From: Streptomyces lomondensis
GTDB lineage: Bacteria > Actinomycetota > Actinomycetes > Streptomycetales > Streptomycetaceae
Assembly (NCBI RefSeq): GCF_014651035.1
Contig: NZ_BMWC01000001.1
Coordinates: 682,001 to 746,000 of the forward strand
DNA: 64,000 nt
Reading direction: 5' to 3'
Within the stretch, counting starts at the first letter, position 1. Every line of letters starts with the position of its first letter. This document shows positions 53,659-57,992 of the stretch, in pieces. The notes beneath the pieces are model-generated. The model saw only the letters and a program-made list of their open reading frames with translations, searched no databases and was not told the DNA's origin. The translations under genes were made by a program, and so were the position numbers.

Positions 53659-53670
53659 ACCGTTCAGCGT

Positions 53671-53708
53671 GCTTCGGCCGTGTTACGCCCGGGACGGTTC
53701 CCTGTTAC
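53671..53708 (-). promoter_or_regulatory. GlnR box of nasA
   Basis: On the minus strand GTAAC-n6-CCGTC-n6-GTAAC-n6-GAAGC, which is two perfect gTnAc half-sites exactly 22 bp apart and one fair GaAAc site. The layout is that of GlnR sites in Streptomyces nitrogen genes. It lies 13 bp before the start codon. Confidence 0.7.
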
Positions 53709-53864
53709 GCGGCCGGGACGGGGACCTCCCCGCCGCCGCCCCGCCCTCGTGAGGCACAGGCCTGGCCACCTTCAGGTCGTCGCCGACCGGCACGGACGTT
53801 GCCTGTGTGACGGAAAACGCCACACGTGGCTCATTGCGTTCTTTTCTTGGCCGATCCGACCTCG

Positions 53865-53892
53865 TTGAGTGTTGAAGCAACGGGACTACGCT
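53865..53892 (+). promoter_or_regulatory. Possible promoter of the adenylation operon
   Basis: TTGAGT (53865-53870) and TACGCT (53887-53892) are separated by 16 bp, a fair match to the vegetative sigma factor pattern. It lies 138 bp before the first coding start. Confidence 0.35.
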
Positions 53893-54030
53893 CTCGCTAC
53901 GCGCAGCGCTCGCACGACTCCGCACGGCGTTCGACCCCCGGGCATGCCCGCCGCTCATCCGGCTGCATCCACACGCGGCTCACCGCCTGTGGCAAACCGA
54001 CACTCGAAACAGCCAGGAGGCCACCCGACC

Positions 54031-55551
54031 ATGCCTCTGCGCCACTTGACCCCCAAGGACCGGCACCTCTTCCGCCAGTACGGCCGGGGCCCCACCGTCC
54101 CCGTCCCCGACCCGCTCCTGCACCACGCCATCGCCCGGCAGGCCCTGGCAGCCCCGCACGCCGTGGCCGCCGAACACCAGGGCGCCCGCCTCACCTACGG
54201 CGAACTCGACCGGTACGCCGGCGCTCTCGCCGCCCGCCTGGTCCGCGAGGGCGTACGCCCCGGCGACCACGTCGGCCTGTTCGTCCGCCGCTCGCTCCCG
54301 ATGCTCGTCGGCCTGCTCGGCATCCTGAAGGCCGGCGCCGCCTACGTCCCGCAGGACATCGGCCTCGCGCCCCCGGCCCAGCTCACCCACGTCATCCGCA
54401 CCGCCCGCACCCGCGTCGTCCTCACCACCGCCGAGCACGCCCACCGGGTGCCCCTGCCGGACGGCCACCTGCTGATCCCGCTCGACGAGCCGCTGCCCCA
54501 CGCCCCGGCCCCACGCCCGCGCGTCACCGGCGACGACGGCTGCTACGTCCTGTTCACCTCCGGCACCACCGGCCGTCCCAACGGGGTGAAGGTCACCCAC
54601 CGCAACGTCGCCAACATCCTGCTCACCGAGCCGGGCGGCCTCGGCATCCGTCCCGGCGACCGGGTCGCCCAGCTCCTCAACATCGCCTTCGACATGGCGG
54701 CCTGGGAGATCCTCGGCTGCCTCGCCCACGGCGGCACCCTCGTCATCCGCGGCAAGGACATCGCCGCGGCGGCCCGCACGGCGGACGTGCTCGTCGCGAC
54801 CCCGACCGTGCTGTCCGGCCTCGACCCCGCCGCCTGCCCGCGGGTGCGCACGGTCGCCGTCGCCGGGGAGCCCTGCCCGCGCCCGCTGGCCGACCGGTGG
54901 GCCCGGCAGGCCGCCTTCTACAACTGCTGCGGCCCGACGGAGACGACCATCGTCAACACGATGGGCCGCCACGACCCGTCCGCCCCGCTGCTCACCATCG
55001 GCCGCCCCACCCCCAACAACACGGTCTACGTCCTCGACGCCGACCGCCGCCCCCTGCCCGTCGGCGAGACCGGCGAGATGTGGGCGGGCGGCGACTGCGT
55101 CTCCGCGGGCTACCTCGGCGACGACGCCCTCAACGCCGAGCGCTACGCCCCCGACCCGTTCCTCGGCGGCGGCCGCCGCATGTTCCGCACCAGGGACCTC
55201 GGCCGCTGGACCCCCGACGGGCAGCTCGAACACCTCGGCCGCACCGACGACCAGGTCAAGGTGCGCGGCTTCCGGGTCGAGCTGGACTCCGTCTCCGCGG
55301 TGCTGGAGTCGGCCGCCGGCTGCGCCCGGGCCGTCACCCTGCGGCGCGACGCCCGCACCCTGGTGTCCTTCGTCTGCCCGGCGGACGTCGACCCGGACAC
55401 GGCCCGCCGCGCGGTGGCGGACGCCCTGCCGTACTACTGCGTGCCGGAACAGGTCCTGCCGCTGCCGTTCCTGCCGGAGACCGACCGCGGCAAGGTCGAC
55501 AAACAGGCCCTGCTGCGGATGCTCGACGAGCGCGTGGCGGTGGCCCGATGA
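54031..55551 (+). CDS. Free-standing NRPS-type adenylation domain (AMP-forming ligase)
   Basis: A 506-residue enzyme that activates a carboxylic acid as acyl-AMP. All core motifs are seen: A3 LFTSGTTGRPNGVKVTH (175-190), A4 FDMAAWEI (220-227), A5 NCCGPTETT (298-306), A7 RTRDLGRW, A8 GRTDDQVKVRGFRVEL (403-418) and A10 GKVDKQ with the catalytic Lys about 488. Asp221 in A4 is the position that holds the alpha-amino group in NRPS domains, so an alpha-amino acid is the likely substrate. There is no carrier or condensation domain. It overlaps the membrane flavoprotein gene by ATGA, the key clue to its role. Confidence 0.9.
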   Translation: MPLRHLTPKDRHLFRQYGRGPTVPVPDPLLHHAIARQALAAPHAVAAEHQGARLTYGELDRYAGALAARLVREGVRPGDHVGLFVRRSLPMLVGLLGILKAGAAYVPQDIGLAPPAQLTHVIRTARTRVVLTTAEHAHRVPLPDGHLLIPLDEPLPHAPAPRPRVTGDDGCYVLFTSGTTGRPNGVKVTHRNVANILLTEPGGLGIRPGDRVAQLLNIAFDMAAWEILGCLAHGGTLVIRGKDIAAAARTADVLVATPTVLSGLDPAACPRVRTVAVAGEPCPRPLADRWARQAAFYNCCGPTETTIVNTMGRHDPSAPLLTIGRPTPNNTVYVLDADRRPLPVGETGEMWAGGDCVSAGYLGDDALNAERYAPDPFLGGGRRMFRTRDLGRWTPDGQLEHLGRTDDQVKVRGFRVELDSVSAVLESAAGCARAVTLRRDARTLVSFVCPADVDPDTARRAVADALPYYCVPEQVLPLPFLPETDRGKVDKQALLRMLDERVAVAR

Positions 55552-56804
55552 CCACCTCACCGCCCCGGGCCCGCCAGGACGCCGGCGCACTCCCGCCGCC
55601 GCTCCCGGCCGCACGCCGCCTGCTCAAGCACCCCGCCCTGATGCACTACAACCGCCTCGCCGCCCTCGTCCTGCTGGCCAACGCGGCCTTCACCTGGGCG
55701 TACTGGCCCCTGGCCACCCCCACCCTCGGGCACGCCGCCCTCGCCAACCTCGCCCTCGCCGTCCTGGTCCGCCAGCAGTACGTCATCAACCTCTTGTTCC
55801 GGCTGGCGACCGCGGCCCCGACGACCTGGCCGCTGAAGGTCCGCTGGACGCTCGGCAAGGTCTACCACTTCGGCGGACTGCACGTGGGCGGGGCGCTGGC
55901 GGGAACGGCCTGGTTCCTGGCCCTGACGATCAGCACACCGGACGCCGCCCTCAGGGCCGTCGGCTGGACCCTGCTGGCCCTCCTCGCGATCGTCATCGCC
56001 ACCGCCCTGCCGCCCTTCCGCGCCCGCCACCACGACCACTTCGAGCGGATCCACCGCTTCGGCGGCTGGACGGCCCTGGCCCTGTTCTGGACACACACGC
56101 TGCTGTCGTCGCCGGGCCCCTGGGAGGTCGGCGTGCTCGCGGTGGTCACCTTCAGCGTCGCCCTGCCCTGGCTGCGGCTGCGCAAGGTCGACGTCCACCT
56201 CGAACGCCCCTCCTCCCACGTCGTGCTGGCCCGTTTCGACCACGGCGAGACCCCTTTCGCCGGCTCGTCCACCGCGATCAGCCGCAGCCCGCTGAAGGAG
56301 TGGCACTCGTTCGCCAACGTCCCCACACCCGGCCGGCCCGGCTTCCGGCTCACCGTCTCCCGCGCCGGCGACTGGACGGGCTCGTTCATCGACGACCTGC
56401 CCCAGCAGGTCTGGGTCAAGGGCATCACCACGGCCGGCGTCGCCAACATCGAGGTCCTCTTCCGCAAGGTCGTCTACGTCGCGACCGGCAGCGGCATCGG
56501 CCCCTGCCTGCCCCACCTGCTCGCCGCAAAGGTCCCCTCCCGCCTGGTCTGGGCGACCCGCGACCCGCGCGCCACCTACGGCGACGCGCTCGTGGACGAG
56601 ATCCTCGCCGTCCAGCCGCACGCCCTGGTCTGGGACACCTCCCGGCACGGCAAGCCCGACATGGTGCGCCTCGCCCACGAGGCCTACCGGGACTTCGGCG
56701 CCGAGGCGGTCATCTGCATCTCCAACAAGAGACTGACCTGGCAGGTGGTCCACGGCCTGGAGCGGCGGGGGATTCCGGCGTACGGCGCGATCTGGGACTC
56801 GTAG
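55548..56804 (+). CDS. Ferric-reductase-like membrane flavoprotein
   Basis: A 418-residue protein. About six membrane segments fill residues 25-215, with His residues suited to haem or quinone sites (KVYHFGGLHVGG near 105, HDHFERIHRFGGWTALALFW near 165, TH after it). The cytoplasmic half is ferredoxin-NADP-reductase-like: KEWHSFANVPTPG near 250 for flavin, RLTVSRAGDWTGSF, then VVYVATGSGIGPCLPHLL near 310 for the nucleotide. It resembles no well-studied ferric reductase closely. Translational coupling to the adenylation gene and a gap of 31 bp to the hydratase gene make it the centre of a three-gene operon. Confidence 0.8.
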   Translation: MTTSPPRARQDAGALPPPLPAARRLLKHPALMHYNRLAALVLLANAAFTWAYWPLATPTLGHAALANLALAVLVRQQYVINLLFRLATAAPTTWPLKVRWTLGKVYHFGGLHVGGALAGTAWFLALTISTPDAALRAVGWTLLALLAIVIATALPPFRARHHDHFERIHRFGGWTALALFWTHTLLSSPGPWEVGVLAVVTFSVALPWLRLRKVDVHLERPSSHVVLARFDHGETPFAGSSTAISRSPLKEWHSFANVPTPGRPGFRLTVSRAGDWTGSFIDDLPQQVWVKGITTAGVANIEVLFRKVVYVATGSGIGPCLPHLLAAKVPSRLVWATRDPRATYGDALVDEILAVQPHALVWDTSRHGKPDMVRLAHEAYRDFGAEAVICISNKRLTWQVVHGLERRGIPAYGAIWDS

Positions 56805-56835
56805 CCCCTCGTAACCCCTCGTGAGGAGAAGCCAG

Positions 56836-57603
56836 ATGAACCACCTGAAGGTCGAGCGCCACGGCCGAGTCGTGACCGTACACCTGCACCGCCCGCACGT
56901 CCGCAACGCGCTCAGCGGCGAGCTCCTCGCCGAACTCCTGGACCTGCTCCGCCCGTTGGACGCGGACCCGGAGACCGGCTGCTTCGTCGTCACCGGCTCG
57001 GAGCGGGTCTTCGCGGCGGGCGCCGACATCAAGGAGATGGCCGGGAAGTCGGCCGTCGACATGGCGGCCGAGGACTACTTCGCCGCCTGGGAGGAGTTCG
57101 CGGACCTCCGCACCCCGAAGATCGCCGCCGTCAACGGCCATGCCCTGGGCGGCGGTTGCGAACTGGCGATGATGTGCGATCTGGTCGTCGCGGGGGAGTC
57201 GGCCGTCTTCGGCCAGCCGGAGATCAAGCTGGGCGTCATCCCCGGCATCGGCGGCACCCAGCGGCTGACCCGGCTGGTCGGCCGGGCCAAGGCGATGGAC
57301 CTGATCCTCACCGGCCGCACCATGGACGCGCGGGAGGCTGGACGCTGCGGTCTCGTCTCCCGAGTGGTCCCGGACGACCGGGTCCTGCCCGAGGCCCTCG
57401 AAGCGGCGGCGGCGATCGCCTCGTACGGCCGCATGGCGGTCCGGGCCGCCCGCGAGTGCGTCGACCAGGCCCTCGAAACCGGCCTGCGCGACGGCATCCG
57501 CCACGAACGCCGCGTCTTCCACGCCCTGTTCGCCACCGAGGACCAGAAGGAGGGGATGACGGCGTTCCTGGAGAAGCGCCCACCGGTCTTCCGAGGGCGC
57601 TGA
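56836..57603 (+). CDS. Enoyl-CoA hydratase/isomerase family protein
   Basis: A 255-residue crotonase-fold protein. FAAGADIKEMAGKSAVDMAA near residue 60 and VNGHALGGGCELAMMCDLVV near 100 form the oxyanion hole. EIKLGVIPGIGGTQRLTRLV near 130 keeps one of the two catalytic acids (Glu of QPEIKLG). The second acidic position (GCEL) is also Glu, so hydratase activity is plausible. ATG 56836 follows GAGGAG. It is the last gene of the adenylation/flavoprotein operon and is followed by a very strong terminator, so its substrate may be the acyl product of that pathway. Confidence 0.92.
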   Translation: MNHLKVERHGRVVTVHLHRPHVRNALSGELLAELLDLLRPLDADPETGCFVVTGSERVFAAGADIKEMAGKSAVDMAAEDYFAAWEEFADLRTPKIAAVNGHALGGGCELAMMCDLVVAGESAVFGQPEIKLGVIPGIGGTQRLTRLVGRAKAMDLILTGRTMDAREAGRCGLVSRVVPDDRVLPEALEAAAAIASYGRMAVRAARECVDQALETGLRDGIRHERRVFHALFATEDQKEGMTAFLEKRPPVFRGR

Positions 57604-57606
57604 CAG

Positions 57607-57643
57607 CCGGGGCGGGGGCGTGCTCCGCGTGCCCCCGCCCCGG
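57607..57643. terminator. Strong bidirectional terminator
   Basis: CCGGGGCGGGGGC (57607-57619) pairs perfectly with GCCCCCGCCCCGG (57631-57643) around an 11-nt loop. It starts three bases after the hydratase stop and also lies after the stop of the converging small secreted gene. Confidence 0.9.
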
Positions 57644-57683
57644 CCGCGTTCAGGGGCCGTGCCTGGTCAGGGCACGCCCCGGA

Positions 57684-57992
57684 TCAGCACTCGTACGCGT
57701 AGTACGGCTCGTCGTCCGCGTCCAGACCGATGCGTCCGATGCCGTAGGGGCCGATCTGGATGCACGACGGGTCCCAGCCGTTGACTTCCACGCTGGCGGA
57801 GATGGTGTGCCCGCACGCGTTGTGGATGTCCGCCCACCCGCGGCCGTAGGCGCCGAGCTTGGCGCACCCCGGCTCCGGAGCCTGGACCGCCTCGGCGGCC
57901 ACGGGTGCCGCCGAGGCGGTCCCCATGGCCGCCGGCACGGCCAGCAGCGCGCCCGCGGCGGCCCTCACCAGCGCGGAGCGAAGTCGAGTCAT
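57684..57992 (-). CDS. Small secreted four-cysteine protein, tendamistat-like
   Basis: A 102-residue protein. A Sec signal (MTRLRSALVRAAAGALLAVP, cleavage after ASA near 28) leaves a mature part of about 72 residues with four Cys. The Cys-to-Cys spacings are 17, 17 and 25, close to those of the alpha-amylase inhibitor tendamistat (16, 18, 28 from memory). Segments HTISASVEVNGWDPSC and ADDEPYYAYEC fit its beta-sandwich. The Trp-Arg-Tyr inhibitory triad is absent (AYGRGW instead). It may be a divergent inhibitor, a toxin-like protein or a surface-binding protein. Confidence 0.8.
   Translation of the reverse strand: MTRLRSALVRAAAGALLAVPAAMGTASAAPVAAEAVQAPEPGCAKLGAYGRGWADIHNACGHTISASVEVNGWDPSCIQIGPYGIGRIGLDADDEPYYAYEC

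Follow-up and report, generated by a model that had tools for sequence, protein, structure and literature searches.

A three-gene Streptomyces operon as a probable split-gene counterpart of the fungal TmpL and TmpB enzymes

Introduction

What does an amino-acid adenylation protein do when no carrier protein is encoded beside it and its gene overlaps that of a membrane flavoprotein? This question is raised by a three-gene operon of Streptomyces lomondensis, located in a stretch of 64,000 nucleotides (contig NZ_BMWC01000001.1, positions 682,001 to 746,000; hereafter the window) within a genome of 8.8 Mb. The genes (Table 1) encode a stand-alone adenylation protein of the nonribosomal peptide synthetase (NRPS) type (A), a membrane flavoprotein (T) and an enoyl-coenzyme A (CoA) hydratase (E). 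An earlier note, made from the sequence alone, had drawn attention to the trio and suggested that an adenylate is handed to a membrane redox enzyme and finished by the third protein, in a kind of system that it did not recognize. Here, we report that A, T and E form a compact, conserved and self-contained operon. In architecture, it very probably corresponds to fungal TmpL/TmpB (ChNPS12), with the parts of the fungal chain encoded by separate bacterial genes.

Results

Fungal proteins with the same architecture

Here and below, statements on the cited papers refer to the parts of their text that were available to us. TmpL of the pathogens Alternaria brassicicola and Aspergillus fumigatus is a chain of 1025 or 994 residues in which an AMP-binding domain is joined to six helices and an FAD/NAD(P) domain, and the recombinant FAD/NAD(P) part bound flavin (PMC2766074). 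The same paper describes TmpL as confined to filamentous fungi and reports an enhanced oxidative burst and sporulation defects in its mutants. TmpB (AN9129) of Aspergillus nidulans, with 989 residues, combines an A domain with a TmpA-like redox domain, resides at the plasma membrane and is required for sporulation at the colony centre; an enoyl-CoA hydratase gene adjoining tmpB has already been published (PMC4804170). Bushley and Turgeon placed ChNPS12 in one group with single A domains of bacteria, namely of Hahella and two Salinispora (PMC2823734). As far as their available text goes, the papers of 2009 and 2016 leave the substrate and product of TmpL and TmpB open.

The view that this kind of system was unknown thus does not hold, since TmpL, TmpB and ChNPS12 combine an A domain with six helices and an FAD/NAD(P) domain in a single chain (PMC2766074, PMC4804170, PMC2823734). 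Because the window has two genes in place of this one chain, we file the operon as a split-gene bacterial variant and not as TmpL itself. A literature search without most subscription papers found no publication joining the bacterial operon to TmpL. New are the self-contained actinobacterial trio, its spread, a natural bacterial fusion of A and T, and the reading of the redox part as a one-haem protein of the NADPH oxidase (NOX) type.

The adenylation protein

A matches the amino-acid adenylation model TIGR01733 above its cut-off (350.7 vs 317.4 bits) and also PF00501, with AMP-binding as the sole domain seen in Pfam and NCBIfam scans. Core motifs A2–A8 and the A10 lysine (K488) were seen, A1 and A9 lying outside the motif check; the names A2–A10 and the HPF motif are used in their customary sense. 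The pocket residues, with PheA numbering in brackets, are D221 (235), W225 (239), C299 (322), G301 (324), I307 (330) and K488 (517), so that all six residues named for the TmpB pocket (D, W, C, G, I and K) are found in A. Under the ten-residue pocket code, including the PheA positions 278, 299 and 301, the pocket reads approximately D-M-W-V-A-A-C-I-V-K, with D, M, W, C, I, V and K checked. These residues support a pocket of the alpha-amino-acid type, and they point to a bulky hydrophobic or aromatic alpha-amino acid as the candidate substrate.

Where a partner carrier might be encoded was addressed at the levels of genome, window and related loci. The genome contains 64 PP-binding domains, of which the nearest to the trio on its contig is about 109 kb away and none lies in the window; a cognate carrier is, therefore, neither linked nor nearby. 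A scan limited to eight other loci found no carrier among their ten flanking genes, which belong to unrelated families and include one further adenylating enzyme. Among the open reading frames (ORFs) listed around 20 divergent loci, only A, T and E, together with ORFs overlapping them, were widely recurrent, in a comparison of ORFs of at least 80 residues that a small carrier could escape. The remaining recurrent ORFs were scattered low-identity matches or shared between three cyanobacterial loci. The surroundings of the trio say nothing firm on substrate. As a side observation, a metagenome-assembled genome (MAG) of Catenulispora encodes a further adenylating enzyme (L072:10187-12007; PF00501, TIGR01733 below cut-off) as a fourth gene after E on the same strand.

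These data bear on the alternative that A, like the free-standing A domains of several NRPS systems, loads a carrier whose gene lies in another part of the genome, with T and E tailoring the carrier-bound residue. Single A domains can act in trans (PMC2823734), and the genome holds many A domains besides its 64 PP-binding domains. However, the distance of about 109 kb on the contig and the absence of carriers from the eight scanned loci argue against this explanation, as does a natural fusion (L079, below), which, like the fungal proteins, joins A to the redox part and not to a carrier domain. We consider trans-loading of a remote carrier very doubtful.

The membrane protein

T had no match in Pfam or NCBIfam. 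Its AlphaFold2 model, computed from an alignment of 54 sequences, has a predicted local distance difference test score (pLDDT) of 86.8 and shows six long helices followed by a mixed half. Compared with SpNOX, the NADPH oxidase of Streptococcus pneumoniae (8qt6), the model gave a Z-score of 22.5 and a root-mean-square deviation of 4.4 Å over 356 aligned positions (residues 29–418), and the top Foldseek ranks were DUOX1, NOX2, NOX5 and SpNOX. A library of viral folds contained no match at an E-value of 0.001 or better. A profile built from 16 diverse relatives also picked up SpNOX (E-value 4.6e-5) and NOX2 (6e-4) by sequence, with EWHxF and GDWT common to T and NOX2; T itself carries EWHSF, GSGIGP at 314–319 and a C-terminal W416. 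Model and profile support T as a redox protein of the NOX/ferric-reductase superfamily, with a predicted six-helix domain and a ferredoxin-reductase-like (FNR) fold.

The histidines suggest a single haem. The haems of SpNOX are held by H69 and H129 at the inner and by H83 and H142 at the outer site (PMC11564096), while a second paper prints H82 for one of them (PMC11031084). In T, H112 on the third long helix and H169 on the fifth are invariant (54 of 54 rows). H169 and position 183 align with the two SpNOX histidines of transmembrane helix 5 (TM5) in the profile alignment; the match of H112 to TM3 is inferred from helix position and spacing, not from a structure-based residue map. One of the 54 rows has His at position 126, the outer TM3 position, and helix 109–129 contains no second invariant His. 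At the outer TM5 position, 183, His occurs in 45 rows, Gln in seven and Leu in two. By this pattern, T appears to retain a single bis-His haem site, predicted to lie beside the flavin, and to have lost the outer-haem pair. As only the inner-haem histidines seem to be kept, T should not export electrons as NOX does. The Trp third from its end is also invariant; SpNOX with Trp at the C-terminal aromatic position shows little or no activity (PMC11031084), so hydride transfer in T may be gated.

Could T instead work as a genuine NADPH oxidase, producing superoxide or reducing metal extracellularly, with A and E only tuning it, A for example as an amino-acid sensor? The top-ranked folds are those of such oxidases, redox balance is disturbed in the fungal TmpL mutants according to the available text, and 45 of 54 relatives retain His at the outer TM5 position. 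Yet 53 of 54 have another residue than His at the outer TM3 position, so that T apparently lacks the usual electron route across the membrane, and the oxidative burst reported for TmpL mutants is enhanced, not weaker. We regard a NOX function of this kind as most improbable.

The hydratase

E belongs to the crotonase family (PF00378). Its catalytic Glu109 and Glu129 are present in 76 of 76 rows, and the AAGAD stretch, corresponding to the oxyanion hole, in 75, with a gap in the remaining one. The active site is intact, and the place given to E in the pathway below is a proposal. In a hydratase tree, the E rows of the trio stand apart from EchA8 at a weakly supported, open fork (89/78), because of which we do not claim a proven trio-only clade; long branches make other placements unsure.

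Conservation and distribution of the trio

A single scan of genome contigs yielded 134 T relatives, of which the best 80 were taken as the loci analyzed. A lies upstream of T in 77 of them, the contig starting at T in the other three, and E lies downstream in 79, one of these being a generic hydratase (L079). When a script assigned the start codons, A and T overlapped by four bases in 62 of the 76 pairs that are not fused. Over 76 rows, the distance matrices of the three proteins are in agreement (r 0.90–0.93; highest of 500 shuffles, 0.46). Among 68 loci longer than 13 kb, 51 keep nasC or sanA from the window neighbourhood and 17 have neither.

We then consider a sample of 295 genomes from this genus, among them that of the window, in which only the best five (A), six (T) and nine (E) candidates per genome were scored. 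T was detected in 36 genomes. With E-value limits of 1e-150 for A and 1e-120 for close E, these two were detected in 36 and 31 genomes, respectively. A and T occur together in 34 genomes, and all 31 with close E carry T; this co-occurrence exceeds chance. Five genomes have T without close E: G384, G394, G467 and G559 (four of four) hold A, T and a divergent E in order, and G320 has only a broken T. T and E are present in G529, with no A at the cut-off; G376 and G562 retain nothing but A remnants, and G540 has a further copy that is decaying. Seven T-less genomes were inspected beside sanA. In three, nasC adjoins sanA without the trio (L124, L126 and L127, with 152, 97 and 969 bp between the matches), one has an E remnant (L122) and three show no nasC match in the stretch. 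Gain and loss of the trio as one unit fits these patterns best. In all, decaying pieces of the trio (single A, T or E) were seen in other genomes of the genus at L117, L118, L119, L120 and L122, at or away from the nasC/sanA site. An amino-acid transporter resembling gamma-aminobutyric acid permeases lies just past E on the opposite strand in Streptomyces scabiei (L041:10238-11773), which may be chance.

Beyond the genus, T was found in 3 of 296 genomes of a phylum sample (two of the same genus, including the window's own) and in 9 of 394 of a class sample (seven of the same genus). The trio is rare outside Streptomyces. It is nonetheless conserved far beyond close relatives, the point on which the earlier note had made its reading depend: 17 of 68 loci have neither nasC nor sanA, and the 4949-base sequence MT838715.1 (L129), from human faeces, encodes the three proteins in unchanged order, with identities of 56% (A), 57% (T) and 61% (E). 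A fusion of the first two genes, for which the note had proposed to search, occurs in a Saprospiraceae MAG (L079), where A and T form one chain of 1018 residues.

MT838715.1, an unverified faecal scaffold labelled ‘Bacteriophage sp.’, was the sole match in a phage collection and was rejected as evidence for a phage gene, as it holds ordinary bacterial genes. Its 59% G+C and a gene for an extracytoplasmic function (ECF) sigma factor adjoining the trio suggest an ordinary bacterium, and it looks like a chromosome fragment. Two scans of viral contigs found no relative. Among plasmids, T-like proteins are encoded on two from Pantoea (50% identity) and, more distantly (31–32%), on three from cyanobacteria, and no A relative was detected in the plasmid collection at an E-value of 1e-100. 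On the Pantoea piersonii plasmid pGABEKP28_2 (L084:11734-15042), the T relative has no A nearby, and the gene after it, annotated as an AAA family ATPase, matches the Pfam amino-acid transporter family Aa_trans. On the cyanobacterial plasmids (L085:11848-14563, L086:11848-14599 and L087:6475-9078), the gene next after that of each T relative encodes a membrane-fusion protein of the HlyD type; here, the same redox protein is partnered differently.

Proposed pathway

Taken as a whole, a split-gene TmpL/TmpB counterpart running a carrier-free amino-acid redox route is the explanation that we favour, with somewhat more confidence than doubt. For its chemistry, we offer a tentative order. A would adenylate a bulky hydrophobic or aromatic alpha-amino acid. 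T, which has kept the FAD and NAD(P)H domains and seemingly the inner-haem histidines, would draw electrons from NAD(P)H. Without passing them across the membrane, it would use them in or close to the inner leaflet, either on the activated amino acid itself or on an acyl derivative of it, such as a thioester. E would then hydrate or isomerize an alpha,beta-unsaturated acyl-CoA product. The output would be a small metabolite derived from an amino acid, with no peptidyl carrier involved in its formation; the analogy of the fungal mutants hints that it may act in development or redox balance. For T, the fold, motifs and histidine pattern come from sequence and a predicted model, and its cofactors, substrate and direction of reaction are accordingly put forward as predictions.

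Several observations weigh against this interpretation. The kinship to TmpL/TmpB was judged from architecture, motifs and published descriptions rather than by comparing fungal sequences. In the A pocket, residue 322 is Cys in 55, Ser in 11, Gly in seven and Ala in three of 76 rows (window copy included, three rows skipped), so that one fixed substrate is not certain, and the spacing from D235 to 322 is 78 in A, 69 by the TmpB numbers and 87 in PheA. The stretches matched by SpNOX in the T profile are each weak singly (i-Evalues 1.5 and 0.24). E falls below the curated cut-off of its best NCBIfam model, NF004517 (370.9 vs 396 bits), one locus (L069) is without E, and the hydratase by the L079 fusion is generic, 37% identical to E and 415 bp away. 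A model of the fused protein was poor (pLDDT 68; predicted template modelling score 0.47), for which reason no contact between A and T is claimed. The proposed route also leaves the entry point of CoA unaccounted for. An alignment of the fused protein with the A and T rows was misaligned and set aside.

An alternative chemistry would have T deliver two or four electrons to the aminoacyl-adenylate and so yield an amino aldehyde or an amino alcohol, with E as a bystander or a catabolic enzyme. The L079 fusion covers A and T alone, the T fold is that of an NAD(P)H-dependent reductase and two relatives adjoin amino-acid transporters, all in keeping with such a reduction. E, however, is tied to the trio, given that every one of the 31 close-E genomes carries T and that E keeps its place on MT838715.1. 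Moreover, a bis-His haem carries one electron and would be an odd tool for reducing an acyl-adenylate. We judge direct reduction unlikely.

The papers of 2009 and 2016 show, in their available text, that the fungal enzymes have a part in redox balance, virulence and sporulation. With a separate soluble A, membrane T and hydratase E in a tractable Streptomyces, the question of the fungal substrate and product becomes accessible by three ordinary assays. The missing outer-haem pair indicates that this branch of the NOX superfamily probably performs chemistry inside the cell instead of exporting electrons. It is conceivable, if speculative, that a carrier-free route is common to bacteria and fungi: an aminoacyl-adenylate would go directly to a one-haem NOX-like membrane enzyme, which would alter the amino acid by a redox chemistry new to enzymes, and an enoyl-CoA hydratase dedicated to the route would finish a small signalling molecule.

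Operon layout and surroundings

The stop of A and the start of T overlap in ATGA, and E begins 31 bp after T. The hairpin behind E has a predicted energy of −48.6 kcal/mol (z −3.6), equalled by 1 of 200 shuffles. Upstream, A is neighboured by a divergent nasC-like gene; AGGAG lies about 11 bases before the A start, and no sigma-70 consensus was found in the intergenic region. Downstream, a 102-residue protein (57684-57992, minus strand) with a signal-peptide-like start adjoins E in only some related loci and has no Pfam or NCBIfam match.

Table 1 Features of the operon and its borders, in window positions
Feature	Position	Strand	Description
A (adenylation)	54031..55551	+	506 aa, stand-alone NRPS-type adenylation protein
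T (membrane flavoprotein)	55548..56804	+	418 aa, six helices, NOX/ferric-reductase fold
E (enoyl-CoA hydratase, EchA8 type)	56836..57603	+	255 aa, catalytic Glu109 and Glu129
Hairpin directly 3' of E	57606..57644	+	G+C-rich, 18 predicted pairs, likely terminator, no T run
Intergenic region between nasC-type gene and A (divergent)	53659..54030	.	Likely promoter region

Much of what the earlier note had read from the letters was borne out, namely an intact stand-alone adenylation domain with an Asp-type pocket for alpha-amino acids, the overlap and spacing of the genes, a crotonase-family gene, a terminator-like hairpin, a membrane redox enzyme and no carrier alongside. Its description of T as a six-helix protein with a ferredoxin-reductase-like cytoplasmic half stands for that half, but the whole protein fits the NOX/ferric-reductase fold. 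Of its overall interpretation, one inherited unit without a carrier, with an amino-acid pocket and a redox T, is retained and the novelty of kind is not.

Comparison with known systems

Stand-alone A proteins of the VibE and YbtE type, as described in the available text, are likewise free A domains of about 500 residues with core motifs (PMC2823734); unlike them, A of the window has no nearby carrier partner, and its gene overlaps, or in L079 is fused to, a membrane redox gene. In Aspergillus nidulans, the TmpA-type oxidoreductase works with an adenylate-forming enzyme, AfeA, encoded alongside, but AfeA resembles coumarate ligases and not amino-acid A domains, and the accessible description names no hydratase with the pair. 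E shares 57% identity, both catalytic Glu and the AAGADI stretch with EchA8-type enoyl-CoA hydratases (PDB 3pzk, PRK05862); it differs in that, among the 295 genomes sampled, close E was seen only in those bearing T. With SpNOX and the eukaryotic NADPH oxidases, T has in common the six-helix domain, the FNR domain and the inner-haem His of TM5, whereas the outer-haem pair is missing, the C-terminal aromatic residue is Trp in place of Phe and T is partnered with A and E.

The closest parallels are TmpL, TmpB and ChNPS12. They too have A without a thiolation or condensation domain. TmpL shares with T the succession of six helices and an FAD/NAD(P) domain, together with the GSGIGP motif named for it, and TmpB shares the pocket residues D, W, C, G, I and K and an enoyl-CoA hydratase gene alongside. 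The fungal proteins are single chains of 989–1025 residues, whereas the window has two overlapping genes, the one-chain form occurring among bacteria in L079. Finally, the fungal role is known from mutants only, whereas the one-inner-haem NOX fold was read from the bacterial protein.

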